In this document: piece by piece, positions 12,864 through 57,454 of the stretch | Position numbering within the stretch: the first letter of the stretch is position 1 | Layout: every line of letters starts with the position of its first letter | Source of the DNA: Pseudooceanicola lipolyticus | Lineage (GTDB): Bacteria; Pseudomonadota; Alphaproteobacteria; Rhodobacterales; Rhodobacteraceae | Direction: 5' to 3' | DNA: 64,000 nt | NCBI RefSeq assembly: GCF_002786325.1 | Contig: NZ_PGTB01000006.1 | Span: 1-64,000, forward strand | Position numbers and translations under genes: made by a program | The notes under the pieces: generated by a model | Told to the model about the DNA's origin: nothing | Databases searched by the model: none | The model's input: only the letters and a program-made list of their open reading frames with translations

Positions 12864-13062
12864 GGTCTGTCTTCCTCTACGTTGCCGGCCATCGACCAGA
12901 CAGACCGATCCGGTTCGAAACCGCGCCCGGTCTCGCCTGAAATCGGCCCGGCCATCTGCCCGAGCTCAACTGATTGTTTGTCGAATTGCGGCGCCTCGTC
13001 CTCCCGAGCCGACCGCTTTGTTCCTCCGATTCACGACGGCCAAAGGACCCTCGTGTCGACAG

Positions 13063-41826: not shown

Positions 41827-42888
41827 ATGACCATTATCTCTGGCACCCGTTTTGATGACGTAATCAGTGCAACTTCGCGCCAGGGTGACATCTTGAAGGG
41901 ACTGGTTGGAAACGACACGTTCGAATTTTACGGCATGAGCCAAGAGGATCGATTTGTCGGTGGGCGCGGGGATGACACGCTCACCGGTATCGAGATCGAT
42001 ATCGAAGCGGCAGCATTTGAAACGCAGGCGCTTGGAACCACATTTGTCGGTGGCCGGGGGGTGGACACCGTCGAATACTCGATATCGGTCACTCTGCCCA
42101 CGCTGAAGCTGAGCAGCTTTGGCATGAAACTAAATAGCGTCGAATTCCGCGACTACGATCTTACGCTCACGGGGAATTACGCGGGCCCGGAAGATACGTT
42201 TAAGATTCTCGGAAAAAACGCGGCGGAGATTGTAGCGATCCGCGATGTGCTTCTTCTCAGTGATATCGACACGCTGAAGGTTAATCTTCGCGGCGGCAAT
42301 GACACGCTCACGGTGGATGTCGGGTCGCTCGACCATATCTTTGTCAACACCGGCGGCGGCGGCGATACCGTGGTGATGCACAGTTCCGTCGACGGTGCCG
42401 TCATCAATCTCGGGGCCGGCAATGACCGGATCATCATGGACAGCTATCACCGTGAAACGGTCAAGGCGGGCAAGGGCAATGACACCATCGTCCTGGACCA
42501 CGCACTTTGGACCGTTCACACCGATACGGTGACGACCGGTGGCGGCCGCGACAAGATTATCGTTGGCGGACAGCCAATCGTGACGGCTCCTCTGGGCAAC
42601 GTGGTCGATTTCAATGCCAAGCGCGACAAGATCGGCCTGGCGGTTGATGGCAATGGCACCAAGCCTTTCGATGTCGTGTATTCGCAACAGGAACTCACCC
42701 AAGAACTCGCGACCAATCCCGATGCCTATCGCACCGAGTATTGGTTGATGGACAACAAGGCCGGCACGCTTGGCTTTGTCTATAACGGGGCGGTCAAGGA
42801 AGTCCTGGATTTCGGCGGGTCGATCGCGCTTGATGATCAGAACTTCTTCAAGGTCGACGAGAATTACGGCTATGATTTCCTGCTCTAA
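41827..42888 (+). CDS. Small RTX (hemolysin-type calcium-binding repeat) protein, putative type I secreted
   Basis: The protein is 353 aa. There are several GGxGxDxhx-type repeats: GGRGDDTLTG, GGRGVDTVEY, RGGNDTLTV, GGGGDTVVM, GAGNDRIIM, GKGNDTIVL and GGGRDKII. These form calcium-binding beta-roll turns, and the spacing between them is irregular. There is no N-terminal signal peptide. The extreme C-terminus is GYDFLL: an acidic residue followed by three hydrophobic ones, the form of type I secretion signals in RTX proteases. No ABC/MFP exporter genes are visible in the window, so export would use a system encoded elsewhere. No enzymatic domain was recognised. Confidence 0.8.
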   Translation: MTIISGTRFDDVISATSRQGDILKGLVGNDTFEFYGMSQEDRFVGGRGDDTLTGIEIDIEAAAFETQALGTTFVGGRGVDTVEYSISVTLPTLKLSSFGMKLNSVEFRDYDLTLTGNYAGPEDTFKILGKNAAEIVAIRDVLLLSDIDTLKVNLRGGNDTLTVDVGSLDHIFVNTGGGGDTVVMHSSVDGAVINLGAGNDRIIMDSYHRETVKAGKGNDTIVLDHALWTVHTDTVTTGGGRDKIIVGGQPIVTAPLGNVVDFNAKRDKIGLAVDGNGTKPFDVVYSQQELTQELATNPDAYRTEYWLMDNKAGTLGFVYNGAVKEVLDFGGSIALDDQNFFKVDENYGYDFLL

Positions 42889-43101: not shown

Positions 43102-43818
43102 TCAGGCAATGCCGGCGTGGTCAGTGATGCGCGCCCTCGCCTGCAGCAAGTGATAGGCCATCGCGACACCCGCGGCCTCGCCGTCACCCGCGCGGATCGC
43201 CTCCAAAATCTGCCGGTGTTCGCTGATCACCACGTCGATCCGGGCCTGCGTGCCCTCGCGAGTCAGCTTTTGCGCCACATCGATACCCTGTTCGATAGCA
43301 TCGCGCGCGCAATCGAGCATTTGCACGAAAACGTCGTTGCCCGAGGCAATGGCGATGGCGTGGTGAAACTGGTAATCGGCTTCAAAGGAGGGCGTGCGCG
43401 CCTGCATGGAATCCTCAAGCGCCTGCAGCGCCGCTTCGATCCGCGCGATGTCCTTGGAATTTGCACGCAACGCGGCCATGCGGGCCGTCGCCTGCTCGAC
43501 CGTGATGCGCGCCTCTACCGCGCGCATCAAGCCTGCGACGGAACCGGCCGTGGCATATTCGATCAGCTTTTCCGACGGGCGGCGTCGCACGAAGGTCCCG
43601 ACCCCGCGACGCGCCTCGACCAGCCCGTCTTCCTGCAGCTTGCGCAAGGCCTCGCGCACAACCGGCCGCGACACGCCGAAGGCGGTGGCGATCTGGTTTT
43701 CTGAGGGCAGCTTCTCGCTCTGGGCGAGCTTGTTTGAGACGATCTGCTCGAGGATCTGCCCGTAGAGCTGATCGGCCAGCGTCTGGCGCTTCTTGATCTT
43801 CAGTTTTGGCGCATCCAC
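43102..43818 (-). CDS. GntR family regulator, FCD subfamily (end of the larEB operon)
   Basis: The protein is 238 aa, starting at GTG with GGGGGAG upstream. The wHTH (about residues 10-80) has LPSENQIATAFGVSRPVVREALRKLQEDGLV; the FCD domain has FEADYQFHHAIAIASGND (ligand/metal His) and ISEHRQILEAIRAGDG. It begins three bases after the larB stop, so it is transcribed with larE and larB. A second FCD regulator heads the same operon, so the NPN-biosynthesis genes sit between two regulators. Confidence 0.9.
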   Translation of the reverse strand: MDAPKLKIKKRQTLADQLYGQILEQIVSNKLAQSEKLPSENQIATAFGVSRPVVREALRKLQEDGLVEARRGVGTFVRRRPSEKLIEYATAGSVAGLMRAVEARITVEQATARMAALRANSKDIARIEAALQALEDSMQARTPSFEADYQFHHAIAIASGNDVFVQMLDCARDAIEQGIDVAQKLTREGTQARIDVVISEHRQILEAIRAGDGEAAGVAMAYHLLQARARITDHAGIA

Positions 43819-43821
43819 CGG

Positions 43822-44523
43822 TTACTCCCCCGATTTCGCGCGGCGCATCATATTGGCCAGTCTCAACGCCGAAGTCGCCGCGCCATAGCCATTGTCGATG
43901 TTCACCACCGTCACACCCGGTGCACAGCTGGCCAATATCGAATCGAGCGCGACCCTCCCGCCGCGGGCAACACCATAACCGACCGAGGTTGGCACACCAA
44001 TAACCACCCCCGGAACCAGCCCGGCAACAACCGACGGCAGCGCCGCATCCATCCCCGCGAAGACGATCACCACATCCATCTCGCGCAGCAATTGCTCGCG
44101 CGCGAGCAGGCGCCAGAGGCCTGCGACGCCTACATCCGAGACTTCACTTGCGTCCATCCCGCCATAGGCCAGCGTGCGTTTCGCTTCGGCCAGCGGGACA
44201 TAATCAGAGGTACCGGCACTGACCAAGGCGATGCGCGGATTCTTGGACAAAGGTCCGATTTTGCCCAGAATGGCGGTGCGGGATGCCGCGCAATAGTCGA
44301 CCGATCGGCGCAGGTCGTCCGGCAATGCGGCAAATTGGTCAGCCGTCAGCCGCGTCAGCAGAAGCCGGCGGTCCTCGTCCCGCGCATCCGCCAGAATACC
44401 GGCGATCTGGCTGACCGACTTTTGCCCGCAGAGCACCGCCTCCTCGATCCCGATCCGGTGGCCTCGGCCCCGGTCGAAGGTCACGTCAGGATGCCTGTCC
44501 GGGCCTGCCTCATTGATGGACAA
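43822..44523 (-). CDS. larB: LarB: pyridinium-3,5-biscarboxylic acid mononucleotide synthase (first NPN cofactor enzyme)
   Basis: The protein is 233 aa if it starts at the TTG eight bases after AGAGGAA, inside the last codons of larE; a GTG two codons upstream is possible. LarB carboxylates and hydrolyses nicotinic acid adenine dinucleotide to form the biscarboxylate precursor of the nickel-pincer nucleotide. The C-terminal half has the PurE-like fold: ALVSAGTSDYVPLAEAKRTL, DVVIVFAGMDAALPSVVAGLV, GVPTSVGYGV and VVNIDNGYGAATSALRLANM, all LarB hallmarks. It overlaps larE and is followed by gntR. Confidence 0.9.
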   Translation of the reverse strand: MSINEAGPDRHPDVTFDRGRGHRIGIEEAVLCGQKSVSQIAGILADARDEDRRLLLTRLTADQFAALPDDLRRSVDYCAASRTAILGKIGPLSKNPRIALVSAGTSDYVPLAEAKRTLAYGGMDASEVSDVGVAGLWRLLAREQLLREMDVVIVFAGMDAALPSVVAGLVPGVVIGVPTSVGYGVARGGRVALDSILASCAPGVTVVNIDNGYGAATSALRLANMMRRAKSGE

Positions 44524-45295
44524 ATGCACTTCCTCTCGAATAGGCGCGCAGGCGTATCGGCCGGTCATCGGCGGTGAACCGCTGCACCTGCGCCACGATT
44601 TCCGCGCGCTTCTGCGCGGAAAGGCTGGCCAGCGCAAGCCGATCGAGTTCAACAGCCCAGCCGCCGCGCAGCAGGCGGCAGCGCAGGGTCACGTTGCCCA
44701 AAAGCCCTCTGAGCATCATCTCGACCCGGTCGATCACCTGCAGATCCGCAGGTTCCACCCGCAGACCGGTTTCGATCCGGCTGGCCAGACAGGGCGCCGC
44801 GGGCAATTCCGCCAGATCGCCAAGCCCGAGCATACGCGCCAGCACCCGCACATCCGCCTTGGACATTTCCGCATCGACGAAAGGATGCAGCACCCCATGT
44901 TCCGCTGCCGCCTGCAATCCGGGTCGGTAATCGGACAGGTCATCGGTATTTGTTCCCGCCGCCACCAGCGGCCCCATGCGGGCAAGCGTGCCATAGAGGT
45001 TCGACTTGCAGAAATAGCAGCGGTTCACCGGATTGGCGCGATAGGCCGGATCGGCGAATTCTCCCGCATCGACCAGTTCGAGATGCAGCCCCCGGTCTGC
45101 CGAAAACGCCTTGACCCGCGCCGTGGCGGCGGCGGGCACAGCGGCAGAGACAGCATGGCAAAGCGTTACCCTATCGGCGCCACGCACATCGGCCGCGGCG
45201 GCGGACAGGGTCAGGCTGTCGATCCCACCGCTCAGGGCAATGGTCAAGGACGCGGGTGCCTCGAGCGCAGCGTAGAGGGCCGCCGGTACGCTCAT
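44510..45295 (-). CDS. larE: LarE: ATP-dependent sacrificial sulfur transferase for NPN synthesis
   Basis: The protein is 261 aa of the PP-loop ATP pyrophosphatase family. The ATP motif is ALSGGIDSLT (about 20-29). Sulfur-insertion cysteines are C93 and C96 in NRCYFCKSNLYG and C169 in AAPCLASR. LarE converts the two carboxylates of LarB's product into thiocarboxylates. Lactobacillus LarE uses one Cys (equivalent of C169) and is consumed. Having three Cys suggests the [4Fe-4S]-dependent, catalytic kind, which is inference. It overlaps the upstream gntR by ATGA and larB downstream. Confidence 0.9.
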   Translation of the reverse strand: MSVPAALYAALEAPASLTIALSGGIDSLTLSAAAADVRGADRVTLCHAVSAAVPAAATARVKAFSADRGLHLELVDAGEFADPAYRANPVNRCYFCKSNLYGTLARMGPLVAAGTNTDDLSDYRPGLQAAAEHGVLHPFVDAEMSKADVRVLARMLGLGDLAELPAAPCLASRIETGLRVEPADLQVIDRVEMMLRGLLGNVTLRCRLLRGGWAVELDRLALASLSAQKRAEIVAQVQRFTADDRPIRLRAYSRGSAFVHQ

Positions 45296-46047
45296 CCGCT
45301 CAGGCCATCTTTCATCTTGAACCGCGCCAGCAGCCGCGCGCTCGACATCTGCAAATGGTCCCGCATCCGCTGCCGCGCGCTCTCGGCGTCGCCCTTGGCG
45401 ATGGCGGCGGCGACGGCGTGGTGTTCCTGCACGGCATCCCGGCTTTCGCCGCCGACCTTGATGGCCTGCAGCCGCCCGGCCAGCATGGTCTCGCGCAGGC
45501 TGGCGCCTAGGTAGTTGAACAGGCTCAGGTAATAGCTGTTCCCGGTCGCCTCGCAGACCGCACGGTGAAAAGCCAGATCGGCGTTCACCCCCGTATCCAC
45601 AGCGGGGCCGGCGCCACGGATGGCGCGGCCATAGGCGTCCGCGGCGCGCTGGATGCCTTCCCGCGCCTCGGGCGTGGCGCGGGCGGCGGCAATCGCCGCG
45701 GCCTCGATCTCCAGCCCCATGCGCAATTCGAGAATCTGTTCCAGCTTGCGCTGGCTCTCCATATCGCGTTCGGAAATCGCAAAGCCTTGACGGGGCCGGT
45801 TGCTTTCCACGAAGGCCCCGCGCCCCTGTCGGCTGGACAACATGCCTTCGGCCTTCAGCCGCGCTACGGCTTCGCGGATCACGGTGCGGCTGACATCGAA
45901 ATAACCCGCCAGCGTGCTTTCGGAAGGCAGCACCTCTCCGACGCTCCAGACACCGTTTACAACGTTCTGCCGCAGGACCTCGGTCACCTGGTCGCTGAGC
46001 GTCGCCCCGTCGACAAGCGGCGCTGGCGCCTGAAGATTTCCTGTCAT
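45292..46047 (-). CDS. GntR family regulator, FCD subfamily (head of the larEB operon)
   Basis: The protein is 251 aa from the ATG after AAGGAAG. The HTH (about 15-80) has LPSESTLAGYFDVSRTVIREAVARLKAEGML and the FCD domain has NADLAFHRAVCEATGNSYY and VQEHHAVAAAIAKGDAESAR, carrying the metal-binding His residues. It is divergent from the TAXI-TRAP operon. The 253-bp shared region has two palindromes (46084-46096, 46167-46176). It probably controls both the importer operon and its own lar operon in response to the imported acid. Confidence 0.92.
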   Translation of the reverse strand: MTGNLQAPAPLVDGATLSDQVTEVLRQNVVNGVWSVGEVLPSESTLAGYFDVSRTVIREAVARLKAEGMLSSRQGRGAFVESNRPRQGFAISERDMESQRKLEQILELRMGLEIEAAAIAAARATPEAREGIQRAADAYGRAIRGAGPAVDTGVNADLAFHRAVCEATGNSYYLSLFNYLGASLRETMLAGRLQAIKVGGESRDAVQEHHAVAAAIAKGDAESARQRMRDHLQMSSARLLARFKMKDGLSG

Positions 46048-46083
46048 GGTATCAACTTCCTTTTGCCGAATGGTACTCCTGTA

Positions 46084-46096
46084 TGACAAGTTGTCA
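46084..46096. promoter_or_regulatory. Palindrome TGACAAGTTGTCA upstream of gntR
   Basis: A perfect 6-bp inverted repeat about a central G, 37 bases upstream of the gntR start. The TTGTC/GACAA half-sites resemble those of other FCD-GntR operators. It lies in a position to autoregulate gntR-larE-larB. Confidence 0.55.
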
Positions 46097-46166
46097 ATAC
46101 TGACGCTTTTCCGCTAAAATCCCCGCTTTCAGCCGCATACAACATGACAGGGACCGCGATTTTTCC

Positions 46167-46176
46167 ACAAATTTGT
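46167..46176. promoter_or_regulatory. Palindrome ACAAATTTGT near the TAXI-operon promoter
   Basis: A perfect 10-bp palindrome, with TTGACA eight bases further right (46185-46190) as a possible -35 box of the rightward operon. A good -10 was not identified. It shares ACAA/TTGT half-sites with the palindrome at 46084. Confidence 0.45.
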
Positions 46177-46300
46177 ATTTATTATTGACAGGCTATTGAA
46201 ACCACCGCAGTCTGCAAAATCACGGCAAGCGGGTGTCAGGGAGGGCCCGGAACCCATCCAGATTCTGCCGACACACAGTCAAAACTCGGGAGGAGTTTCA

Positions 46301-47260
46301 ATGTCACTTATCTTCAAGACGATTCGCCAGACAGCGGCGGCCACCATCCTTTTCACCGCCACCGGCATGGCCGCACAGGCGCAAGACATAGTCATGGCCA
46401 CCGGCCAGCAGGGCGGCTCCTGGTATCCGGTGGGCGGGGCCATCAAGGCGATCATGGAGCGTGAAAACCCCGACATGGACATCACCGTGATGCCGGGCGC
46501 CGGCGTCTCCAACGTGGTGGGCGTGGATGCGGGCCGCTTTGGCATCGCCTTTGCCAATTCGATCTCCACCGTGGACAGCATGTCCGGCAAGGAGCCCTTC
46601 CGCAAGGCCACCACAAATGTGTGCAACCTTGGCATCCTCTACCCGCAATATTTCCAGATCGTCGCGCTGGCCGATTCCGGCATCGAGACGGTCGCCGACA
46701 TGAAGGGCAAGCGCCTGACCACGCAGCAGCTGGGCAACACGGGCGAATTCCTGACCCGTGAACTGCTCTCCACCGCCGGCATGACATTCGACGACCTGTC
46801 GAGCGTGGCCAACACCTCCTATTCCGACTCCGCCTCGCAGATGAAGGACGGCCAGGCCGATTTCTTCACGCTGGGCTCGTCGCTGCCGACGGGTTCGGTG
46901 ATGGATCTGGCCTCCTCACGCAAAATTCGCCTGATCGATGTGGATGAGGAAACCTTTAAATACTTCAAGGACAAGAATGCGGCCTTCCAGCGTCGTGAAG
47001 TCAAGGCCGGTGCCTATCCGGGCTTCGACGAAACCGTCCATGCCATCAGCTATGACACGCATCTGGTCGCACCCTGCGACTTTGACGGCGAGATCGTCAA
47101 ATCCGCGCTCGCCGCGATTGCCGACAACAACGACAGCTTTGCCGCCATCAGCAAATCCATGGCGAACCTGACCGTCGAGGAAATGGCCACCGACATCGGC
47201 GTGCCGTTCCACCCTGCCGCAAAGGAGTTCTACGCCGAGCGCGGCGTTTCGGGGATGTAA
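46301..47260 (+). CDS. TRAP transporter substrate-binding protein, TAXI family
   Basis: The protein is 319 aa starting at the ATG after GGGAGGAG; residues 1-27 are a signal peptide (QTAAATILFTATGMAAQA|QD). The mature part carries the TAXI-type text VMATGQQGGSWYPVGGAIKAIME, ITVMPGAGVSNVVGVDAGRFGIAFANS and LTTQQLGNTGEFLTRELLSTAGMTFDDL. It binds the solute for the fused 4TM/12TM permease encoded next. Its operon also encodes a ThDP enzyme and a GlcD-like dehydrogenase, so the cargo is probably a 2-hydroxy acid or related. Confidence 0.93.
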   Translation: MSLIFKTIRQTAAATILFTATGMAAQAQDIVMATGQQGGSWYPVGGAIKAIMERENPDMDITVMPGAGVSNVVGVDAGRFGIAFANSISTVDSMSGKEPFRKATTNVCNLGILYPQYFQIVALADSGIETVADMKGKRLTTQQLGNTGEFLTRELLSTAGMTFDDLSSVANTSYSDSASQMKDGQADFFTLGSSLPTGSVMDLASSRKIRLIDVDEETFKYFKDKNAAFQRREVKAGAYPGFDETVHAISYDTHLVAPCDFDGEIVKSALAAIADNNDSFAAISKSMANLTVEEMATDIGVPFHPAAKEFYAERGVSGM

Positions 47261-47279
47261 TCCACCGCTGACAAACAAA

Positions 47280-47311
47280 GGGCCGGCCGGGGAATGTGCT
47301 CCGCCCGGCCC
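47280..47311 (+). terminator. GC-rich hairpin after the TAXI binding-protein gene
   Basis: GGGCCGG (47280-47286) pairs with CCGGCCC (47305-47311), and the inner CGGGG can pair with CTCCG (one GU). It begins 20 bases after the stop. No T-run follows, so partial attenuation or RNA protection is more likely than full termination. Confidence 0.6.
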
Positions 47312-47388
47312 ACAGTCACCAGTTCCATGGCGCGGACGGCTGCAATCCGGCGCGCATGGCTGCCCCCACTCTAGACGCGAGAACCCCC

Positions 47389-49263
47389 ATGCAACTGTCG
47401 ATCTTTTTTGACAAGATGCCCCTGATTACCCGCATCGCAAGGCTGATCCTGATTGGCATGGCGGTCTGGCATCTCTACGTCGCCTTCGTCGGCCCGCCCA
47501 ACCCCTATATCATGCGCGGCGTTCACGTCGCCCTGGCGCTGCTGCTGATCTTCATCACCGTAAACCGCAAAGGCCTGCGCCATGAAGTCCCGCGCTGGTA
47601 CGACGTGGTGCTCGGTCTGGTGGCCATGGGTGCGGCGCTCTATCCTTCACTCAATCTCGACTACATCACGCAGCGGTTTCTCTATGTCGACCCGCTGCTG
47701 CCGATCGACATCGTGGTGGGGATCATCCTTGTCGTCCTGCTGCTCGAAGCGACGCGCAGGATGCTCGGGCCGATGCTGCCCATCACCGCGATTCTCTTCA
47801 TGGCCTACGGGCTGACCTTCACCTCCACACTCCCTTCGGTGATCCTCGAACAACTGTTCATGACGCCCGAAGGCATCTTCGGCATCCCGATCGCGGTCTC
47901 GGCCACCTATATGGTGCTCTTCATCCTCTTCGGCTCGCTCGTCGAACGTATGGGCGTCGGCCAGCTGTTCATGGATTTCGCCGTGGCGCTTACCGGACGT
48001 CAGGTCGGCGGCCCGGCCAAGGTGGCCTGCGTGACCTCGGGCCTCTTCGGCTCTGTGTCCGGCTCGGCGGTGGCCAATGTGATGACCACCGGCACCTTTT
48101 CCATCCCGCTGATGAAGCGCATGGGCTTCAAGCCCGCCTTCTCTGGCGCGGTCGAAGCCGTGGCCTCCACCGGTGGCCAGATCATGCCTCCGGTCATGGG
48201 TGCGGCGGCCTTTGTCATGGCCGAATACCTCGGTGTCGGCTACCTGACGGTGGCGAAATACGCGCTTGCCCCGGCCATTCTGTTCTATGTCGCCCTCTTT
48301 GCCGCGGTGCATTTCGAAGCCAAGCGCAAGGGCATCGGCTCGGTCCCGAAAGAAGACCAGGTGCCGCTCAAGCAGGTGCTGACGGAACGCGGGCATCTGT
48401 TCCTGCCGCTGGCGATCATTGTCGGTGTGCTGATGATGGGCTATTCCGCGCCCTACGCCGCGCTCTGCGGGATCATCTCGATCGTGCCGGTTGCCGCCTT
48501 GCGCAAGACCACGCGGCACTACGTCAATATCGACAACATCCTCGACGCGCTTGAAAGCGGCGCGCGCAATGTGCTGTCGATTGCCGCGGCCTGTGCCTGT
48601 GCGGGCATCGTCGTTGGCGTGATCGACATCACCGGCCTCGGCCTGACCTTCTCCAACTTCGTCATCGAAGCGGCGCAGGACACGCTGGTTATCGCGCTCT
48701 TCCTGTCGATGATCGCCGGCATCATCCTTGGCATGGGGATGCCGACGACACCGGCTTATATCGTGCAGGTTGCCCTTCTGGTGCCGGCGCTGGTGAAACT
48801 GGGCGTGCAGGTCGAAGCGGCGCATCTCTTCGTCTTCTACTTCGCGATCCTCTCGGCCATCACCCCGCCCGTGGCCATGGCGGTCTATGCGGCCAACACC
48901 CTGTCGCAAGCCAAGATCGTCGCGGCAAGCTGGGCTGCCGTGAAACTCGGGGCCACCGGCTTCATCGTGCCTTTCATGTTCGTCTATGAACCGGCGATCC
49001 TAATGCAGGGCTCGGCCATGCAAGTGACGCTTGTGCTGCTGCAGGCCACCATCGGGGTGATTTTGCTGGCCGCCGCCCTCCAGCGTTACTACTTTGGCAG
49101 GCTATCCAGCGCATTGTCGGTCGTCCTCTTCGGCGCCTCGCTGCTGCTGATCTATCCCGATCTGCGGCTTACCGCCTCGGGCCTGGTCATCGCGGCGATC
49201 ATCCTGGCCTTCCAGGTGGCCAGGAACCGCAATGTGAACAGCCAGCCTGCCACACATTTCTGA
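47389..49263 (+). CDS. TRAP transporter fused permease (4TM/12TM)
   Basis: The protein is 624 aa if the start is the ATG of MQLSIFFDKMPLITRIARL; an ATG 11 codons upstream is possible, and neither has a strong ribosome site. It is a fused DctQM permease as expected for the TAXI subfamily: about four N-terminal helices then about twelve in the large domain. Conserved stretches are TSGLFGSVSGSAVANVMTTGTFSIPLMKRMGF, AVASTGGQIMPPVMGAAAFVMAEYLGV and MGMPTTPAYIVQVALL. It partners the TAXI binding protein encoded upstream. Confidence 0.93.
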   Translation: MQLSIFFDKMPLITRIARLILIGMAVWHLYVAFVGPPNPYIMRGVHVALALLLIFITVNRKGLRHEVPRWYDVVLGLVAMGAALYPSLNLDYITQRFLYVDPLLPIDIVVGIILVVLLLEATRRMLGPMLPITAILFMAYGLTFTSTLPSVILEQLFMTPEGIFGIPIAVSATYMVLFILFGSLVERMGVGQLFMDFAVALTGRQVGGPAKVACVTSGLFGSVSGSAVANVMTTGTFSIPLMKRMGFKPAFSGAVEAVASTGGQIMPPVMGAAAFVMAEYLGVGYLTVAKYALAPAILFYVALFAAVHFEAKRKGIGSVPKEDQVPLKQVLTERGHLFLPLAIIVGVLMMGYSAPYAALCGIISIVPVAALRKTTRHYVNIDNILDALESGARNVLSIAAACACAGIVVGVIDITGLGLTFSNFVIEAAQDTLVIALFLSMIAGIILGMGMPTTPAYIVQVALLVPALVKLGVQVEAAHLFVFYFAILSAITPPVAMAVYAANTLSQAKIVAASWAAVKLGATGFIVPFMFVYEPAILMQGSAMQVTLVLLQATIGVILLAAALQRYYFGRLSSALSVVLFGASLLLIYPDLRLTASGLVIAAIILAFQVARNRNVNSQPATHF

Positions 49264-49296
49264 TAATCTGAACGATCGGAACGGAGCACTTTCAAC

Positions 49297-51003
49297 ATGC
49301 TGCAAAAAGTATCCCTCAAGGCGCGGACGGGCGGACAGATCCTCGTGGATCAACTGCTGATCCACGGTGCCGACACCGCCTATTGCGTGCCTGGTGAAAG
49401 CTATCTTGAGGTGCTCGATGCGCTCCATGACGTGCAGGACAGGTTCAAGCTGGTCAACGCGCGGCACGAGGCAGGGGCGGCCAATATGGCCGAGACCTAT
49501 GGCAAGCTGACGGGCAAGCCGGGGATTTGCATGGTCACGCGTGGCCCCGGCGCCTGCCACGCGGCCATCGGCGTGCATATCGCGCAACAAGACAGCACGC
49601 CGATGATCCTGCTGGTCGGTCAGATCGCCCGTGAAACCACCGATCGCGAAGCCTTTCAGGAAATCGATTACCGCGCGATGTTCGGCCCCATTGCCAAATG
49701 GGCCACCCAGATCGACGATCCGGCCCGCGTGCCCGAATATATGGCCCGCGCCTTTCGCGTGGCCACTTCGGGCCGCCCCGGCCCGGTGGTGATCGGCCTG
49801 CCCGAGGACATGTTGACCGAGGTTGTCTCGGTCCCGGACGCGCGGCCCTACAGTGCCACCCATGCGGCGCTTTCGGCCGAAAATCTCGCCATGCTGAAAA
49901 CCCAGCTTGTGCAGGCCGAGCGCCCCCTGATGCTGCTTGGCGGGTCCGGCTGGTCGGATGAAAGCGCCGCAGCCATCACCCGCTTTGCCGAGACGAACCA
50001 GATCCCGGTTGCGACCTCCTTCCGCCGTCAGGACATCGTCGACAATCTCTCGCCGGTCTTTGCCGGGGATTTCGGCACCTCCACCGCACCCAGCCTCTAT
50101 GCGCATCAACGCGAGGCCGACCTTCTGCTCGTCATCGGCGCACGTTTGGGCGAAATGACGACCAAGACCTATACCACCATCCAATCGCCCAACCCGGCAA
50201 CACGTCTGGTGCATCTCTATCCCGACCCGGATGAGATCGGCCGCGTCTATTCGCCGGATCTTGGCATCGCCGCGGCCCCTGTCTCGGTGGCCGCCGCGTT
50301 GGACGGCGTCGATCTGGGCCGAGCGCAGGCCTGGGGCGGCTGGTGCGAAACTTTGCACGCCGATTACCTGGCCGATACCGAAGCACCCAATGGCGGCGAA
50401 TGGGATCTCGACATGGGCGTGGCCCTTGCCCAGCTGCGTGATCTACTGCCCGATGATGTCGTGGTGACGCTGGACGCCGGCAATCACACCGGCTGGGCGC
50501 AGCGGTTTTTGCGGTTTGGCCGGCCCGGCCGCATCATCGGCTCGACCTGCGGCGCAATGGGCTATTCCGTGCCGGCGGCCGTTGCCGCATCGATTGCCCG
50601 GCCGGACCGCCTGACCCTGTCTTTCGTCGGCGACGGCGGTTTCATGATGAGCGGCAACGAACTGGCCACCGCCGCACAATATGGCGGACGTCCCATCGTG
50701 CTGCTGTTCAACAACGGCATCTACGGCACGATCCGCATGCATCAGGAACGCGACCACCCCGAGCGGGTTTCAGGCACCACGCTGCAGAACCAGGATTTCG
50801 TCAAGATGGCCGAGGGGCTTGGTGCCCATGCCGAGCGGGTCACCAGGACCGCCGATTTCGCCGATGCTTTTGCCCGCGCCCGCGACAGTGGCCGCCCGGC
50901 CTTGATCGAACTGGTGACCGATCCCGAACAAATCTCGACTCGCACCACCATCAGCAAGCTGCGCGAGGCAGCTCGGAAAAAGGCCGAAGCCGGCCAGCGT
51001 TGA
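49297..51003 (+). CDS. ThDP-dependent 2-oxoacid decarboxylase/carboligase-like enzyme
   Basis: The protein is 568 aa with the three-domain fold of acetolactate synthase, benzoylformate decarboxylase and relatives. The catalytic Glu is E58 in NARHEAGAANMAETYGKLTG. The Mg/ThDP site is GDGGFMMSGNELATAAQYG followed by LLFNNGIYGT. A ribosome site GGAG precedes the ATG, and the gene lies between the fused TRAP permease and a GlcD-like oxidase. It could decarboxylate a 2-oxo acid made by the next enzyme. Carboligation (acetolactate type) is an alternative; the anabolic IlvB regulatory partner is absent. Confidence 0.85.
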   Translation: MLQKVSLKARTGGQILVDQLLIHGADTAYCVPGESYLEVLDALHDVQDRFKLVNARHEAGAANMAETYGKLTGKPGICMVTRGPGACHAAIGVHIAQQDSTPMILLVGQIARETTDREAFQEIDYRAMFGPIAKWATQIDDPARVPEYMARAFRVATSGRPGPVVIGLPEDMLTEVVSVPDARPYSATHAALSAENLAMLKTQLVQAERPLMLLGGSGWSDESAAAITRFAETNQIPVATSFRRQDIVDNLSPVFAGDFGTSTAPSLYAHQREADLLLVIGARLGEMTTKTYTTIQSPNPATRLVHLYPDPDEIGRVYSPDLGIAAAPVSVAAALDGVDLGRAQAWGGWCETLHADYLADTEAPNGGEWDLDMGVALAQLRDLLPDDVVVTLDAGNHTGWAQRFLRFGRPGRIIGSTCGAMGYSVPAAVAASIARPDRLTLSFVGDGGFMMSGNELATAAQYGGRPIVLLFNNGIYGTIRMHQERDHPERVSGTTLQNQDFVKMAEGLGAHAERVTRTADFADAFARARDSGRPALIELVTDPEQISTRTTISKLREAARKKAEAGQR

Positions 51004-51015
51004 AGGATTGAAGAG

Positions 51016-52464
51016 ATGACCACTCTGAGCGCGCCGCCGACCGCGCCCGAAGCGGACGGTCGGGACCACACCGCCCTGCTGGCAAGCCTGCGCGAAGCCA
51101 TCGGTGCCGCCCATGTCGTGACCGAGGCCCAGGACATGGCCGCCCGGCTCGTCGAGGATCGCGGCTTGCGGCAGGGCACGGCGCTGGCCTTGCTGCGGCC
51201 CGGCAGCACCGAAGAGGTCGCCACCTGCCTGCGCCTGTGCAAGGCGGCCAAGATGCCGGTCACCCCGCAGGGCGGCAACACGGGCCTTGCGGGCGGCGGT
51301 GTGCCGGATGGTGGGATCATCCTGACCACCGACCGGCTGAACCGCATCCGCCAGGTCGATCCGACCAATGCCACGATCACGGTCGAAGCGGGCTGCATCC
51401 TTGCCAATATCCAAGCCGCCGCCGATGCGGTTGACGCCCTTTTCCCGCTGTCACTGGCCTCTGAGGGCTCTTGCCAGATCGGCGGCAACCTCTCGACAAA
51501 CGCAGGCGGCACCGCGGTGCTGCGCTATGGCAATGCCCGTGATCTGGTGCTCGGCATCGAAGCGGTGCTGCCCGATGGCCGGGTGCTGAACGACCTCAAC
51601 GGGCTGCGCAAGAACAACACGGGATTTGACCTCAAGAACCTCTTCATCGGCGCCGAAGGCACCCTGGGGATCATCACCACCGCGGTTCTGAAACTCTTTC
51701 CAAAACCCAGCGCCCGTGCCACGGCGCTGGTGGCCTGTACCGGCCCGGACCCGGCGCTTGCGCTTTACGCGAGGATGCGCAGCCAGACCGCCGATACGCT
51801 CTCGACCTTCGAATATGTCGAACGGCTTGGCCTGGAAATGGTGATCGACCACACCCCGGGCTGCAGCGATCCGATGAGCGAAGCGCATCCGGCCTATTGC
51901 CTGATTGAACTTACCGGCAATGGCGCGCAGGCCGACCTCGACACACGGCTCGAAGGCGCACTCGAAGTGGCCTTTGAAGCCGACCAGATTGTCGACGCCG
52001 TGATCGGCGCATCCGAGGCGCAGAAAGACGCGCTTTGGGCATTGCGCGAAAACCTGTCGGAAGCGCAGAAACATGAGGGCGCCTCGATCAAGCACGATGT
52101 GTCGGTCCCGGTGTCCCGCGTTGCAGATTTTATCAAGGTCGCAACCCAGGCCTGTATGGATCACATGCCCGGCCTGCGCCCCTGTCCCTTCGGGCATTTC
52201 GGCGACGGCAATCTGCATTTCAACCTGACGCGCCCGGTGGACATGGCGGATGCCGACTTCCTCGCCGAGTACGGCGCATTTAATCGCATCGTGCATGACA
52301 TCGTACACGAGATGGGCGGGTCCTTCTCGGCCGAACACGGGATCGGCACCTTCAAGCGGGCCGAGCTGCGCCGCTACAAGGATCCGGTGGCGCTTGAACT
52401 CATGGCCCAGATCAAGGCCACCCTGGACCCCGATGATCTGATGAACCCGGGCAAGGTGCTCTGA
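51016..52464 (+). CDS. FAD-linked 2-hydroxyacid dehydrogenase (GlcD/D-2-hydroxyglutarate dehydrogenase family)
   Basis: The protein is 482 aa. The FAD-binding domain (about 40-220) has TPQGGNTGLAGGGVPDGG and QIGGNLSTNAGGTAVLRYGNARDLVLG. The C-terminal substrate domain has the metal-binding HFGDGNLHFNLTRPV and the terminal SAEHGIGTFKR motif. It oxidises (R)-2-hydroxy acids such as lactate, glycolate or 2-hydroxyglutarate with a quinone or cytochrome acceptor. It follows the ThDP gene by 12 bases. With a racemase-like LarA next door, both isomers of a 2-hydroxy acid could be used. Confidence 0.9.
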   Translation: MTTLSAPPTAPEADGRDHTALLASLREAIGAAHVVTEAQDMAARLVEDRGLRQGTALALLRPGSTEEVATCLRLCKAAKMPVTPQGGNTGLAGGGVPDGGIILTTDRLNRIRQVDPTNATITVEAGCILANIQAAADAVDALFPLSLASEGSCQIGGNLSTNAGGTAVLRYGNARDLVLGIEAVLPDGRVLNDLNGLRKNNTGFDLKNLFIGAEGTLGIITTAVLKLFPKPSARATALVACTGPDPALALYARMRSQTADTLSTFEYVERLGLEMVIDHTPGCSDPMSEAHPAYCLIELTGNGAQADLDTRLEGALEVAFEADQIVDAVIGASEAQKDALWALRENLSEAQKHEGASIKHDVSVPVSRVADFIKVATQACMDHMPGLRPCPFGHFGDGNLHFNLTRPVDMADADFLAEYGAFNRIVHDIVHEMGGSFSAEHGIGTFKRAELRRYKDPVALELMAQIKATLDPDDLMNPGKVL

Positions 52465-52596
52465 ATCCCCGTGCGGTATCGGGCATCGACATTGCCTAAA
52501 CGGTCACAAAGCTCGCCTTCGTGGGCGCGACGGACTTAACCGTTGGCATACGCGGCTGGGTGGCGGGCAAGCAGGAATATCCAAAGTGCCCACGCG

Positions 52597-53778
52597 TCAG
52601 GTCTCTGCCGCACGGGCCCGCATCCGCCGCTCGTGCAGCGTTTCGGCATCGGCCAGATCGTCGCTTTCGGCCTTGATGGTTTCCTGCCCGCCGGGCCGCT
52701 GCGCCCGCTTGCGCCGCACCGCGCCAGCCATGTCACTTTCGCGCGGCAGGATCAGGCGGTCCACGACCGCACGCCTCAGCCCGAGCGTCGAGGTCAGCTC
52801 GAACAGCCGCGTGGCGATGGCGTCTGCGGACGCGGGCCGCACCAGCAATTCCATCCGAGTGACCGGGCGGGATTTCTTCCCCTGCCCGGACAGCAGCAGC
52901 AGATCGACCACCCCCGGCAGATCGCGCAGCCTGTCAACCGCCGCACCAAGCTCCTCGCCCGTCATATCGTCGATGTCGCAGGCCAGCTGGACCAGGCTGT
53001 CCTGATGAAACCCCGCCTCATCGGTGTCGAAGACGCTGACGCGCAGGATATTGGGCAGCCCTTTCATCACCCGAGTCCCGGCCCCCGATCCGGTGCCGCG
53101 CAGCCGCCCCGGCGGGCGGCTCACCGTCGGGCAACCGCCGGTGACATGGGCGAGGATCGCGGCCCCGGTGGGGGTAACGCGCTCGCCCGGCACACCGTCG
53201 TCATGCCAGTCAAAGCCCTGCAGGATAAGCGCTGTGGCGGGTGCGGGCACCGGCATTTTGCCATGTGCCGTATCGACCAGCCCGCCCCCGAGCGGAAGGG
53301 GGGCGAGCGAGAATGTTGCCCCGCTGAGCGCGGCGCAGATGCTCCCGGCGGCGGTGACATCCATCAGCGCGTCCCAATCGGCAATCTCGTGAAAATGTAC
53401 CCGGTCGATGGGAATGCCGTGCACTTGTGCCTCGGCCTCGGCGATCCGGTGCAGGATGGCACAGGCCGCCGCGGCGGTGCCCTCCAACAGCGGCGCCCGC
53501 TCCAGAAGGTCGCGCATCGCGCGGTAGGTGGTCTCGGCCCCGTGGCGCGATCCCGCGCCTTCGGCTGCCAGCACCAGTTCAAACCGTCGGGCGGTGATGC
53601 CCGAGGCGATATGTTCGGACAGTTCTGCCCGCCCCACCTCTGCCGGCAGCACCGCGGCCACATCGGCCAGCGCGCGCTCGACGAGATCGGGGAAGGCATC
53701 GAGCATCGCCGCGATGAACATGTCTCCCGCAGCGCCCCCGACCGGGTCGAGATGCAGGTGCAGTCCCTGCCCTCCCAT
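52597..53778 (-). CDS. larC: LarC: nickel insertion protein for the nickel-pincer nucleotide
   Basis: The protein is 393 aa as one continuous frame, starting MGGQGLHLHLDPVGGAAGDMFIAAML. The ATG overlaps the larA stop (TGATG) and has GGAGG seven bases upstream. LarC uses CTP to put Ni into the pincer nucleotide, forming (SCS)Ni-P2TMN. Motifs seen include DRVHFHEIADWDALMDV, VDTAHGKMPVPAPATALIL, ERVTPTGAAILAHVT and the C-terminal DDMTGEELGAAVDRL, FELTSTLGLRRA. In Lactobacillus larC needs a frameshift between larC1 and larC2; here none is needed. It ends in a charged tail. Confidence 0.92.
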   Translation of the reverse strand: MGGQGLHLHLDPVGGAAGDMFIAAMLDAFPDLVERALADVAAVLPAEVGRAELSEHIASGITARRFELVLAAEGAGSRHGAETTYRAMRDLLERAPLLEGTAAAACAILHRIAEAEAQVHGIPIDRVHFHEIADWDALMDVTAAGSICAALSGATFSLAPLPLGGGLVDTAHGKMPVPAPATALILQGFDWHDDGVPGERVTPTGAAILAHVTGGCPTVSRPPGRLRGTGSGAGTRVMKGLPNILRVSVFDTDEAGFHQDSLVQLACDIDDMTGEELGAAVDRLRDLPGVVDLLLLSGQGKKSRPVTRMELLVRPASADAIATRLFELTSTLGLRRAVVDRLILPRESDMAGAVRRKRAQRPGGQETIKAESDDLADAETLHERRMRARAAET

Positions 53779-55091
53779 CAATGTACCTCCGGCCATGGAT
53801 TGTGCAGAAGTCCAGCGCTGAACTGCATCTCTTGCAGCGCGCCAATCACCTCCAGCCCCGGCCGCTCGCGCAGTTCCGGCAGCATGGCCTCCGAGGCATA
53901 GATATATTCCAGCTTCAGCGTGTTCGGGATCCGCAGCAGACGCACCTTGGCGATATCCTCGGCTCCGCATGTCTTGATCGCCGTCTGAATCGCAGTGCGG
54001 TCACACGGCATGACCATCGGGATCTTGGCCTGTTTCACCACCTGCGAGGTGATCGCATTGGCATAGACCGCCTCGCGATCGAAATCCGCCTCCAACCGCC
54101 GGGTGATGACATCCGCCCGCGCGGCGCCGTTGCCATTGCCGTTGCTGCGCGGCGACAGGCCAAGCGCCACCAGCCGCGCGATATGCAGGTGCACCTGCAT
54201 CTTGTCGCTGGTGAAGCGATGGGTGATGTTCGGATCCATCCCGGTACCCGAAAATTCCTTGCCGATCTCATCGACCACCAACACGTCGAGATCTCCCGAG
54301 GCGGTCGGCGCCTCGAGTGGCCCCAGCGGCAGGCGCGGCATGTTGCGCATCGCCTCCTGCAACAGCGGCGCTTCGGCCTCCAGCATGCCCTCGCTGTCCA
54401 GTGCCACGACCCGCGCCAGCCCGTCATAGGCGTTCTCGATCGTGCCGATCCCGAACAGCACCTTGCAACGCGCCAGCTTCATCCGCGCCATTTCGGCCAC
54501 GAAGGTACCGACATTGTCGATGCCCCGCGAATGGCAGGTCTCGGCCCCCGACTGCTTGCCCAGGCCAATTGAGAGCATCTTGGCCAGCCCGCTCTCATTG
54601 GGTGCGCGGAACGACGTATGCGGTTTGATCCGGTTGAACAGGATGATGCCGTCGGCGGAATTGGCATGACGGTCCATCCGCACCGACAGACCATTGTCGA
54701 GCACGCCGATCTCGTCCGTATCCATCGACGAACGGATCTCGCAGCCGAGGCTTTCTTCAGTCACGCCCAGCTTGGCCAGCAATGCGGTCTGCCCCTCGGC
54801 GGTGGCACCGCCGTGGCTGCCCATGGCGGGAACGACGAAGGGATGCGCGCCGCGCTCGCGAACCTCGTGGACAATCGCGGCCAGCAGTTCCGGCAGGTTG
54901 GCCAGCCCGCGGCTTCCGGCGGTGATGGCGATGGACATACCGGGGCGCACCTTGTCCACGCAGGCGGCTTTCATCGCCTCGGCCACGGCGGCCTGCGGCA
55001 CCTCGATCTGGGTGGCTGCGAATTCCTGGCGGCACAGCGCAATGCGCGGCAGCGGCGTGTTTTCGACCAGTTTCACATAGTTCGGTTTCAT
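53778..55091 (-). CDS. larA: LarA-family nickel-pincer-nucleotide-dependent racemase/epimerase
   Basis: The protein is 437 aa with the LarA N-terminal domain followed by the C-terminal domain. Compared with Lactobacillus LarA, the expected residues fall in place: R61 (AGSRGL), H93 (GSHGGA), H158 (IKPHTSF), K171 (LAKML) as the NPN-attachment Lys, and H187 (ETCHSRG) sixteen residues later, the spacing of K184 to H200. It should carry out proton or hydride transfer at the C2 of a 2-hydroxy acid. The substrate is open: lactate, malate, other 2-hydroxy acids or an aldonate are known for the family. It shares a promoter region with a divergent GntR. Confidence 0.85.
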   Translation of the reverse strand: MKPNYVKLVENTPLPRIALCRQEFAATQIEVPQAAVAEAMKAACVDKVRPGMSIAITAGSRGLANLPELLAAIVHEVRERGAHPFVVPAMGSHGGATAEGQTALLAKLGVTEESLGCEIRSSMDTDEIGVLDNGLSVRMDRHANSADGIILFNRIKPHTSFRAPNESGLAKMLSIGLGKQSGAETCHSRGIDNVGTFVAEMARMKLARCKVLFGIGTIENAYDGLARVVALDSEGMLEAEAPLLQEAMRNMPRLPLGPLEAPTASGDLDVLVVDEIGKEFSGTGMDPNITHRFTSDKMQVHLHIARLVALGLSPRSNGNGNGAARADVITRRLEADFDREAVYANAITSQVVKQAKIPMVMPCDRTAIQTAIKTCGAEDIAKVRLLRIPNTLKLEYIYASEAMLPELRERPGLEVIGALQEMQFSAGLLHNPWPEVH

Positions 55092-55490
55092 CTGCGCTGT
55101 CCTTCCAGACGTTTACCCAGTTCAGCCCATGACCCCGATGGGCCAGGGTGCCATTTCTCTTCGCCGGGACGAAACGCCTCGGGTATTGCTTTGCTCACCC
55201 GAGGCATTGGCCAGGATAGGTTCGATGCGTGCTGGCCCCAGTTCTTCGAGGCTCTGTTCGCCGCCGACACCGGGCCGCCGGCGGTGTCCCTATCGTCGCA
55301 CAGCCTCCTTGCCTTCCGCGATGTGCGCGCCGTACCGCCGAGATGCTGCGCCGAACGGGTCGCGACAACGCCACTCTCCGTGGGTGACAGCAGCATCACC
55401 CTTGCCTCCCTGTCTTCTGGCATGGTCTGGCTGCCCATCGGATGCTTTCTTTCGGGGGCCAAAAAAATCGCTTCGGTCAGATGCGATCAA
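55092..55490. other. Divergent promoter region between larA and gntR
   Basis: About 400 bases. The only structured element is the near-palindrome at 55491-55502. The open frames here have no ribosome sites or similarity. No terminator was found. An extra-long larA leader is possible. Confidence 0.45.
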
Positions 55491-55527: not shown

Positions 55528-56304
55528 ATGACTTCATTGAACAAGCCTGCAGCGCAGAGTGCACAGGCTTTTGCCAAAAGCATCCTCGGCGGCGGAGCAG
55601 GTTTGGGCTTGTTTGAAGGCGGCCCAACCGGGCGTGGGGTCTATGACACGCTGCGCGATCAAATCGTCAAGCTCGACCTGCCGCCGGGCACGCCACTTTT
55701 GCGGGCCGAGCTCGCGGAAATCCATGGCGTCAGCCTCACCCCCTTGCGCGACGCGCTGCAGCAGCTGGCCAAAGAGGGGCTGGTCAAAATCTACCCCCAG
55801 TCCCGCACATTGGTCACCCCCATCGACATGTCGGCCATCCGCGAGGCGCAGTTCATGCGCATCGCGCTGGAAACCGAGGTGGTGCGCCGCCTTGCCGAGG
55901 AAATCGCAGCCGAGGCGCTGACTCGTCTGCGCAGCATCGTTGCCCTGCAAAGCAGCATCATGGATCAGCCCGGCGACGTGCTGACCTTTCAGGAACTCGA
56001 CGAAGTGTTTCACCAGACCCTGTTTGTCGCGGCGGGTCATGTTCAGAGCCAGCGCATCATGCGCAGCCATGCAGGCCATCTGGAACGCCTGCGCCGCCTG
56101 AACCTGGAAGACAGCGACGACGCAGGGCGCCTTCTGAACAACAGGGAAGTCATCCAGGGCCATAGCCAGATCCTCGACGGCATCGAAGCAGGCGATGCGG
56201 CGCGCGCGATGGATGCCTTGCGCCAACACCTGCAGCGCACGGTTGACCGGATGTCGGAAAAGCAGGCGGCTTTTCCGGAGTACTTCACGCCGGAAAAACC
56301 CTGA
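55528..56304 (+). CDS. GntR family regulator, FCD subfamily
   Basis: The protein is 258 aa. The first 35 residues are an Ala/Gly-rich extension. The HTH is about residues 38-105 (VYDTLRDQIVKLDLPPGTPLLRAELAEIHGVSLTPLRDALQQLAKEGLV). The FCD ligand domain has ELDEVFHQTLFVAAGH and VIQGHSQILDGIEAGDAARAMDALRQHLQRT. It is divergent from larA-larC and convergent with the dapA-ilvD pair. It probably controls both, since both promoters carry the AT-rich near-palindrome. Confidence 0.9.
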   Translation: MTSLNKPAAQSAQAFAKSILGGGAGLGLFEGGPTGRGVYDTLRDQIVKLDLPPGTPLLRAELAEIHGVSLTPLRDALQQLAKEGLVKIYPQSRTLVTPIDMSAIREAQFMRIALETEVVRRLAEEIAAEALTRLRSIVALQSSIMDQPGDVLTFQELDEVFHQTLFVAAGHVQSQRIMRSHAGHLERLRRLNLEDSDDAGRLLNNREVIQGHSQILDGIEAGDAARAMDALRQHLQRTVDRMSEKQAAFPEYFTPEKP

Positions 56305-56533: not shown

Positions 56534-57454
56534 TTATGCCGGCTCTTCGCTCAGCTGATCCAATCGGTTTTCAGCTATGAATTGATCAAGCGCCGCCTGC
56601 TGCCGTTCAGTCAAAGGCCAGGCAGAGGGCGGCCGTGTCGCGCCGCAGTCCTGCCCGATCGCCATCAGCGCGGCCTTGACACCGGTGACATTGGTGCCGT
56701 TGTGTTCTTCCGCGCGGATGTCCTCGAACAGACGCATTCCAGCAATCAGCCGGTTCGCCTGTGCATAGTCACCCGCATCTAGGGCGGCGTGAATCGCGAC
56801 CGACCGCTCTGGCCAGACATTGATCAACCCCGAGGTAAAGCCGCGCGCCCCCACCGCATAAAGCGGCGGCGCCCAGACCTCGGCCAAGCCGCCGACCCAG
56901 ACGATATGATCAGGGGCGGCGCTGATGGCGCGGGCAAGGTTCAGCGGGTGGGGCGTGGCCCATTTGACGCCCATGACTCCCTCAATCTCGCAGAGGCGCG
57001 CGATGCCCTCCGGCCCCATCGCGTCATTGCGCAGATACAGCATGATCGGCAGCCCGCCCGAAGCATCGCGCACGGCACGCACGTAATCCACCGTGCCACG
57101 GGGCGAGACGAACGGGTCCGGCGGCTGGTGGATCATCAGCGCATCCGCGCCCGCATCGGCGCTGGCCCGCGCCAATGCACAAGCATCGCGTATGCCGCGA
57201 CCGACCCCGGCCAGCAGCGGCGCGCGCCCGTCGACCATTCCGGCCACTTCGCGCACCATGGTGCAGGCCTCTTCGTTGGTCAGCGCGTAATATTCGCCGG
57301 TATTGCCGTTCACGACCGGGATATGCACCCCGGCCTCGAGCGCCCGGTCGATGACCGGCGCAAGCTTGCCCGGGGCGATTTCCCCTTCCGCATCATAGGG
57401 TGTCACGAGGATACCCGAGATTCCGGTCAGCGCCTTTTTCAGATCATGTGTCAT
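56534..57454 (-). CDS. DapA-superfamily aldolase/dehydratase for a 2-keto-3-deoxy sugar acid
   Basis: The protein is 306 aa with the DHDPS/NAL fold. The active-site lysine is in GVKWATP, and a Tyr is present in the preceding IMLYLRND strand. GNTGEYYALTNEE near residue 50 is the carboxylate-binding loop. It differs from the DapA-type protein at 254-1165, in which that Tyr is missing. It follows an L-arabinonate-dehydratase-like gene by 11 bases and is convergent with the gntR. It would dehydrate or cleave the 2-keto-3-deoxy acid produced by that enzyme. Confidence 0.85.
   Translation of the reverse strand: MTHDLKKALTGISGILVTPYDAEGEIAPGKLAPVIDRALEAGVHIPVVNGNTGEYYALTNEEACTMVREVAGMVDGRAPLLAGVGRGIRDACALARASADAGADALMIHQPPDPFVSPRGTVDYVRAVRDASGGLPIMLYLRNDAMGPEGIARLCEIEGVMGVKWATPHPLNLARAISAAPDHIVWVGGLAEVWAPPLYAVGARGFTSGLINVWPERSVAIHAALDAGDYAQANRLIAGMRLFEDIRAEEHNGTNVTGVKAALMAIGQDCGATRPPSAWPLTERQQAALDQFIAENRLDQLSEEPA

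Follow-up and report, generated by a model that had tools for sequence, protein, structure and literature searches.

Which substrate is handled by the LarA-type enzyme encoded at 53778–55091 (minus strand) of a 64,000-nucleotide stretch of Pseudooceanicola lipolyticus DNA (contig NZ_PGTB01000006.1, positions 1 to 64,000; hereafter the window, with coordinates counted from its first letter)? Few organometallic cofactors occur in biology, and LarA-type enzymes carry one of them, the nickel-pincer nucleotide (NPN). A predicted function has been assigned to only about half of the LarA superfamily (excerpts of PMC11770544). An earlier note on this DNA had described larE, larB, larC and larA as a complete NPN system split into two blocks around a TAXI-TRAP transport operon, and had suggested that the aldonate/TAXI context might point to a new substrate. 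The analysis presented here favors the reading that the window LarA is an NPN-dependent aldonate C2-epimerase within a sugar-acid catabolic island, with a probability of roughly two in three. The LarA family, its kind of chemistry and the layout of these genes on many plasmids are known already. Neither a substrate nor a dedicated paper for the subfamily concerned, group 22, was found in the literature searched without supplements (Table S1 of PMC7583248 may hold a context note), and as far as these searches show the prediction of a substrate class for the group is new.

LarA and the genes for its cofactor

The assignment of the protein to group 22 is firm. It scores 484.1 bits (cut-off 400) against the curated NCBIfam model NF052515, "nickel pincer cofactor-dependent isomerase, group 22", along residues 14–408 of 437, which is nearly the full length; it differs from the group in none of the features tested, and the family name is given without a substrate. 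Among 14 control genomes, T. maritima and C. glutamicum included, the model matched only Haloferax volcanii, and members of the group were found in Alphaproteobacteria, Bacillota and haloarchaea.

The active-site residues listed in the earlier note (R61, H93, H158, K171 and H187) proved exact in their numbering and are invariant in all 95 sequences of a group-22 alignment that includes the window and in which two entries are one contig met twice. K171 occupies the NPN lysine position throughout, and the spacing of 16 residues between K171 and H187 is as described. Further invariant positions of the group are E166, E219, K278, S281 and D286. By analogy with LarA, K171 would be the cofactor tether, H187 the nickel ligand, and H93 and H158 the acid–base pair; both of these histidines are kept, unlike in the asparagine variant of PMC12611868 (excerpts). 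The lactate racemase LarA of Lactiplantibacillus plantarum and Isosphaera pallida has a spacing of 10 between the equivalent histidine and lysine (H174/K184 in the published numbering), whereas H158 and K171 are 13 apart, and it has an Asp72 for which the window protein, by spacing, has no aspartate; Tyr294, Gln295 and Lys298 are its substrate-binding residues. The NPN-dependent D-gluconate 2-epimerases GntE1 and GntE2 (LarAH19 and LarAH20), which have cofactor-binding and catalytic residues in common with LarA, belong to groups other than group 22 (excerpts of PMC7583248 and PMC11770544); groups 19/20 are described as having E, V, A and H at four selectivity positions (excerpts of PMC11770544).

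Because a sequence search of solved structures gave nothing reliable (best LarA match 2yjg, E 0.15), a fold comparison was needed, and it places the predicted window protein in the LarA fold at 12–19 per cent identity to lactate racemase LarA. The window protein is very probably an NPN-dependent enzyme, and a substrate other than lactate, as the earlier note had supposed, is supported as probable. Malate racemase was considered as an identity and rejected, the match to its model reaching just 23.6 bits against a cut-off of 500.

The genes for the cofactor are present in full, as had been claimed, each above its NCBIfam cut-off. On the minus strand lie larB (43822–44517; NF033503, 240.5 bits, cut-off 175), larE, which encodes an ATP-dependent sulfur transferase (44510–45295; TIGR00268, 236 bits, cut-off 150), and larC for nickel insertion (52597–53778), in which LarC1 (TIGR00299, 160.4 bits, cut-off 90) and LarC2 (NF052512, 93.6 bits, cut-off 50) are fused in one open reading frame (ORF). 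Alignment with annotated Sulfitobacter genes, for larB that of S. indolifex, puts the larB start at about 44517, the ORF start at 44652 being too long, and the larC start at 53778, the ORF start at 53970 falling within larA; by these coordinates the larC start and the larA stop overlap by one base. Production of the NPN cofactor by LarB, LarE and LarC is established for the families, and the presence of the genes suggests the same here. The window LarE, with an SGGIDS P-loop at 22, CYFC at 93 and PCLAS at 168, is probably of the [4Fe-4S]-dependent type because of this P-loop and the CXXC-C motif, the latter being the mark of that type (excerpts of PMC9283937). The S. indolifex larE (L022, 2191–2976) is labelled as a hypothetical protein in its plasmid record.

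Ratios of nonsynonymous to synonymous substitution (dN/dS) against S. indolifex are 0.079 for larA, 0.086 for larB, 0.094 for larC and 0.140 for larE, which speaks for function, although the figures average over time before a deletion beside larA that is described below. For ten genes of the island the range is 0.04–0.14, and these values together with the E-values of the matches rule out chance.

The sugar-acid context of group 22

Three genes beyond larA are assigned to the island because they are its companions on the Sulfitobacter plasmid. These are gntR3 (55528–56304, plus strand), a GntR-family regulator of the dehydratase/larA module with an 89 per cent identical counterpart in the same place in S. 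indolifex; a gene for a lyase or dehydratase of the dihydrodipicolinate synthase (DHDPS) family (56534–57454, minus; 91 per cent), probably a 2-keto-3-deoxy-sugar-acid dehydratase and nearest to PRK03620/KdgD, though below cut-off (139 of 278 bits); and araD (57466–59208, minus; 94 per cent), encoding an L-arabinonate dehydratase of the IlvD/Edd family. The last matches the PRK13016 equivalog model at 1080 bits (cut-off 882), the only catabolic enzyme scanned in the window to exceed an equivalog cut-off; among solved structures it is related to 8ej0 (619 bits), which bears the name dihydroxyacid dehydratase, and to the L-arabinonate dehydratase 9evv (548 bits).

When LarA was searched against the proteins of annotated plasmids, 114 records were returned, of which 60 have at least 80 per cent identity (13 Sulfitobacter, 47 Pseudosulfitobacter); LarA of these plasmid islands is 81–90 per cent identical to that of the window. 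Gene order was examined in S. indolifex pDSM14862_c, Pseudosulfitobacter sp. DSM 107133 and P. pseudonitzschiae P5. All three have one module with TRAP permease–TAXI genes divergent from gntR–larE–larB–gntR–NIPSNAP, and another with araD–DHDPS, gntR and altronate-dehydratase family–larA–larC; genes for a thiamine diphosphate (ThDP)-dependent enzyme and a GlcD-like oxidase follow the permease in both plasmids where that stretch was read. The layout of larE–larB and larA–larC is not unique to the window, which has the two modules in swapped order, larA–larC thus abutting the GlcD-like gene. The gene positions behind the reported split around the TAXI-TRAP operon stand, but what looked like a split is a swap of two modules, and the conservation of the layout among relatives extends to both modules and not to their order. 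No match to the S. indolifex aldehyde dehydrogenase (ALDH) or NIPSNAP genes was found within the window island; a partial ALDH match (57.5 per cent over 80 residues) lies outside it, at 3–242. The larC gene of Pseudosulfitobacter sp. DSM 107133 is immediately followed by another pair of genes for a TAXI solute-binding protein and a fused TRAP permease (L025, 16496–19978).

The deletion mentioned above concerns the dehydratase partner before larA, which of all the partners gives the most direct indication of a substrate class. The altronate/galactarate-dehydratase family gene uxaA, intact in the islands of Sulfitobacter and Pseudosulfitobacter (pDSM14862_c and others), which hold the same genes, is in the window an internally deleted remnant directly upstream of larA (55125–55438, minus). 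In a DNA alignment with S. indolifex uxaA, 55349–55438 matches the 5′ end of that gene and 55125–55297 its 3′ end, about 1.3 kb in between remaining unaligned, and the protein match is confined to 48 C-terminal residues (56 per cent, E 1e-9).

The wider comparison drew on 589 confirmed group-22 stretches, the best 80 of which were retrieved together with flanks of up to 10 kb; the 73 whose flanks reached 6 kb or more on each side were counted. Neighbors received their labels from similarity to the proteins of annotated loci and from clustering with Pfam and NCBIfam on representatives, most neighboring ORFs staying unlabelled. At 30 loci larA has an IlvD- or UxaA-type dehydratase no more than 10 kb away, at 24 a DHDPS-family gene and at 22 an FGGY kinase, alongside larB at 32, larC at 39 and larE at 35. 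The genome of the window itself holds seven IlvD/Edd genes and one UxaA gene in 5.23 Mb, at which density a random 21-kb stretch would contain one about 3 per cent of the time, a rough control from a single genome for loci that are not independent. TAXI genes were found at two loci (the window and one Pseudosulfitobacter plasmid), a lower bound given that labels rest on one reference each and that the S. indolifex module lies about 13 kb from larA; ThDP genes were likewise found at two, one of them a distant relative (L036), and a GlcD gene at one. The aldonate context put forward in the earlier note is well supported by this comparison of group 22 and not by the TAXI operon, which had seemed the telling neighbor.

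A tree of group 22 divides these contexts by clade. The clade of the window (12 entries, support 100/99) includes the Sulfitobacter cassette as well as Salinicola acroporae, whose larA stands with TctC/TctA near PdxA, a PF17042 kinase C-domain, an NAD-binding dehydrogenase, an Nramp transporter and larC–larB–larE (L039, 11438–20927). We take the kinase domain to be of the DUF1537 type and the gene set to be of the kind known for four-carbon sugar acids, which suggests that the Salinicola acroporae enzyme acts on such an acid. Clade B (19 entries, support 100/99) has an IlvD-type dehydratase in 14 of 19 and, among the 18 with full flanks, TRAP transporters in 15 and UxaA, DHDPS and ALDH in 11 each; one member (L088) has 2-ketoglutarate semialdehyde dehydrogenase (854 bits, cut-off 770) and galactonate dehydratase (671 bits, cut-off 311).

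Clade A (29 entries, support 100/93) is drawn entirely from Bacillota, and the 25 members with full flanks have SDR (23), FGGY (18), ROK (17), UxaC (14) and 6-phosphogluconate dehydrogenase (6PGD; 13) genes. Its sole member put to NCBIfam, from Neobacillus drentensis (L056), yielded glucuronate isomerase (641 bits, cut-off 387), 6-phosphogluconate dehydrogenase (792, cut-off 413) and D-mannonate oxidoreductase (285.8, cut-off 281). The enzymes of this member correspond to the route from glucuronate through fructuronate, mannonate and gluconate to 6-phosphogluconate, and our guess is that LarA would act here at the mannonate/gluconate step, turning D-mannonate into D-gluconate. For galacturonate, Rodionova et al. 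suggested a branch leading from mannonate to gluconate that uses gluconokinase and 6-phosphogluconate dehydrogenase (excerpts of PMC6978723), and the mannonate/gluconate step has been proven for other LarA groups (excerpts of PMC7583248 and PMC11770544).

The proposed reaction and its alternatives

In the reaction proposed, the NPN made by LarB, LarE and LarC would be bound by LarA through K171, as a thioamide, and through H187 at the nickel. By passing a hydride to the NPN and back, LarA would then invert an aldonate at C2, with H93 and H158 alternating as acid and base as in LarA, and the C2 epimer would pass to a sugar-acid dehydratase, in the window the L-arabinonate dehydratase, whose product the adjoining DHDPS-family enzyme may carry towards 2-ketoglutarate semialdehyde. 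In the closest relatives an altronate-dehydratase-family gene is also found immediately before larA, and this gene is deleted here. That LarA epimerizes some sugar acid, whether aldonate or aldarate, is likely. The simplest guess at the exact pair is L-ribonate to L-arabinonate, because L-arabinonate dehydratase alone among the window's scanned catabolic enzymes passes an equivalog cut-off, and we regard this pair as doubtful.

IlvD/AraD-type dehydratases take one threo arrangement at C2–C3 and UxaA-type dehydratases its mirror image, as illustrated by L-arabinonate, D-gluconate, D-altronate and galactarate. A more speculative and rather improbable extension is that group 22 as a whole is a family of C2-epimerases for aldonates in general, forming a stereochemical funnel from four C2/C3 stereoisomers to one 2-keto-3-deoxy acid. 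The NPN epimerase would turn the two erythro isomers into the threo forms taken by the two types of dehydratase, for C4 acids in Salinicola (PdxA and DUF1537-kinase context), C5 acids in Sulfitobacter and the window, and C6 acids in Bacillota, and the window would retain half a funnel, its UxaA half lost. The reading of group 22 as aldonate epimerases would, if right, explain how bacteria can use sugar-acid epimers that their dehydratases refuse; the predictions for each clade (mannonate/gluconate in one, pentonates in that of the window, four-carbon acids in another) could be tested with a few aldonates.

Several observations weigh against an aldonate C2-epimerase. The position of LarA Asp72, a ribose contact, corresponds by spacing from R61 to A58 and is never aspartate in the 95 sequences. 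No intact dehydratase remains in the operon of the window larA. Of the 73 loci, whose relatedness makes the counts interdependent and among which relatives of the window are over-represented, 21 lack dehydratase, FGGY and DHDPS labels; four of these have UxaC or 6PGD and 17 neither, and the 21 include four of the six relatives of the same family with a group-22 LarA (G007, G193, G243 and G152). The FGGY kinase of Neobacillus drentensis falls below the gluconokinase cut-off (486 bits against 648). Co-occurrence of UxaA with group-22 LarA at the genome level, seen in six of six relatives, was dropped as evidence, UxaA being present in 91 of 149 genomes of the family. Genomic context, moreover, is not always helpful for determining activity (excerpts of PMC7583248).

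The genome has a second group-22 LarA, 51 per cent identical to that of the window, with its own larC, larE and larB. It lies with TctC/TctA, an IlvD-type dehydratase, an Ldh-type oxidoreductase and UxaA on another contig (C187; L012, G000:C187, 4877–17138), which carries the only other uxaA of the genome. Contamination was rejected as the source of this system: contigs C187 and C403 have GC contents of 65 and 63 per cent and a tetranucleotide correlation of 0.992, and likely come from one genome, though the assembly is listed with 5.68 per cent contamination.

The alternative that survives best, itself improbable, draws on the plus-strand block between the two lar blocks (46301 to 52464), where the importer, ThDP enzyme and GlcD-like oxidase of the earlier note are indeed present. 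The block comprises a TAXI-type TRAP solute-binding protein (46301–47260; TIGR02122, 209.6 bits, cut-off 84) and a fused TRAP permease (47389–49263; TIGR02123, 618 bits, cut-off 321), 90 and 93 per cent identical to S. indolifex and with starts taken from that alignment, an acetolactate-synthase-like ThDP-dependent enzyme (49297–51003; PRK08199, 788 bits, cut-off 539) and a GlcD-like FAD-linked D-2-hydroxyacid oxidase (51016–52464; PF01565 and PF02913) that is below the GlcD equivalog cut-off (259 of 568). LarA might racemize a simple 2-hydroxy acid such as 2-hydroxyglutarate taken up by the TAXI transporter, with the oxidase using the D-form and the ThDP enzyme decarboxylating the keto acid. 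It would suit such a pathway that larE–larB and the TAXI genes are divergent neighbors in the three plasmids, and that the solved relatives of the oxidase include D-2-hydroxyglutarate dehydrogenase (6lpn, 313 bits), the best being 3pm9, a putative oxidoreductase (478 bits). The survey, however, found TAXI, ThDP and GlcD genes near larA at the few loci given above, the S. indolifex module lying beyond 10 kb, and in Sulfitobacter larA sits in the other module, behind a sugar-acid dehydratase. A lactate or 2-hydroxyglutarate racemase is ranked lower on account of the repeated presence of sugar-acid genes around group-22 larA, in a survey whose labels took in no lactate- or malate-specific genes such as those for lactate permease or malic enzyme.

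The distribution of the ThDP gene also tells against a simple 2-hydroxy acid. Relatives at 60–72 per cent identity occur in six genomes of the same family (G246, G088, G226, G170, G097 and G056), in none of which a group-22 LarA match was found, and two of them cluster with an araD relative: in G088 the ThDP gene is beside one (77 per cent; L135, 6426–16662), together with a 5-dehydro-4-deoxyglucarate dehydratase subfamily gene (PRK03620, 404 bits, cut-off 278; the KdgD equivalog match is just below cut-off), and in G097 it is clustered with another (72 per cent; L138, 363–10680) and with an L-talarate/galactarate dehydratase (609 bits, cut-off 500). The ThDP gene seems tied to sugar-acid breakdown, and our guess is that the TAXI–ThDP–GlcD module probably serves to take up and process a related hydroxy acid. 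The ThDP gene is present on all 13 Sulfitobacter plasmids with larA; one more Sulfitobacter plasmid (strain SK025), which the LarA search did not retrieve, has an 83 per cent ThDP relative with no TAXI gene beside it. The TAXI operon was set aside as main clue to the substrate, the ThDP gene occurring also without group-22 LarA and the TAXI genes of the three plasmids adjoining larE–larB, not larA.

The same talarate/galactarate dehydratase of G097 would fit a second alternative, also unlikely, in which LarA epimerizes an aldarate such as galactarate/talarate, the UxaA relative being of galactarate type and the DHDPS relative of KdgD type. S. indolifex UxaA reaches 370 of 731 bits against galactarate dehydratase (TIGR03248), and KdgD is nearest to the window DHDPS protein, but both matches fall far under their equivalog cut-offs; the sole window enzyme above one is L-arabinonate dehydratase, and the context of clade A is that of an aldonate. 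Finally, although the uxaA gene just before larA carries an internal deletion and the genome has a second complete system, it is very unlikely that the window LarA is non-functional or a passenger after this loss, given that all its key residues are intact, that the dN/dS values of larA, larB and larC are low (as averages that include the time before the deletion), and that G152, whose LarA is an 82 per cent relative, likewise keeps larA–larC with no uxaA found beside larA and one elsewhere in its genome.

Remaining genes

The genes named in the earlier note are real and lie where it placed them, including the pair of regulators said to enclose larE–larB. Both are of the FadR/GntR type (PF00392 and PF07729) and complete a minus-strand block gntR2–larE–larB–gntR1 that runs from 46047 to 43102: gntR1 (43102–43818) shares 90 per cent identity with the regulator that follows larB on S. 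indolifex pDSM14862_c, and gntR2 (45292–46047), its start taken from the same alignment, is 83 per cent identical to its S. indolifex counterpart. The third block, larA–larC, runs from 55091 to 52597, also on the minus strand.

The gene for a 461-residue protein, hyp26 (L026, 11368–12753; L138, 7549–8961), follows larA in Loktanella and adjoins the ThDP gene of G097, and a 28 per cent relative lies about 7.5 kb from the ThDP gene in G170; by eye the protein is membrane-like, and it matches nothing in Pfam and no NCBIfam model above its cut-off. Outside the island, the window has a second L-arabinonate dehydratase gene (11136–12869, minus; 1061 bits, cut-off 882; 66 per cent identical to S. indolifex araD). 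Between 35385 and 40833 there are ORFs that by eye resemble sugar ABC transporters, together with one for a protein resembling D-psicose 3-epimerase (130 bits, cut-off 300) and one for a regulator of LacI type, 29 per cent identical to a LacI reference. A 353-residue protein encoded at 41827–42888 (plus), with no NCBIfam match at E 1e-30, shows by eye stretches of GGxGxD-like repeats.

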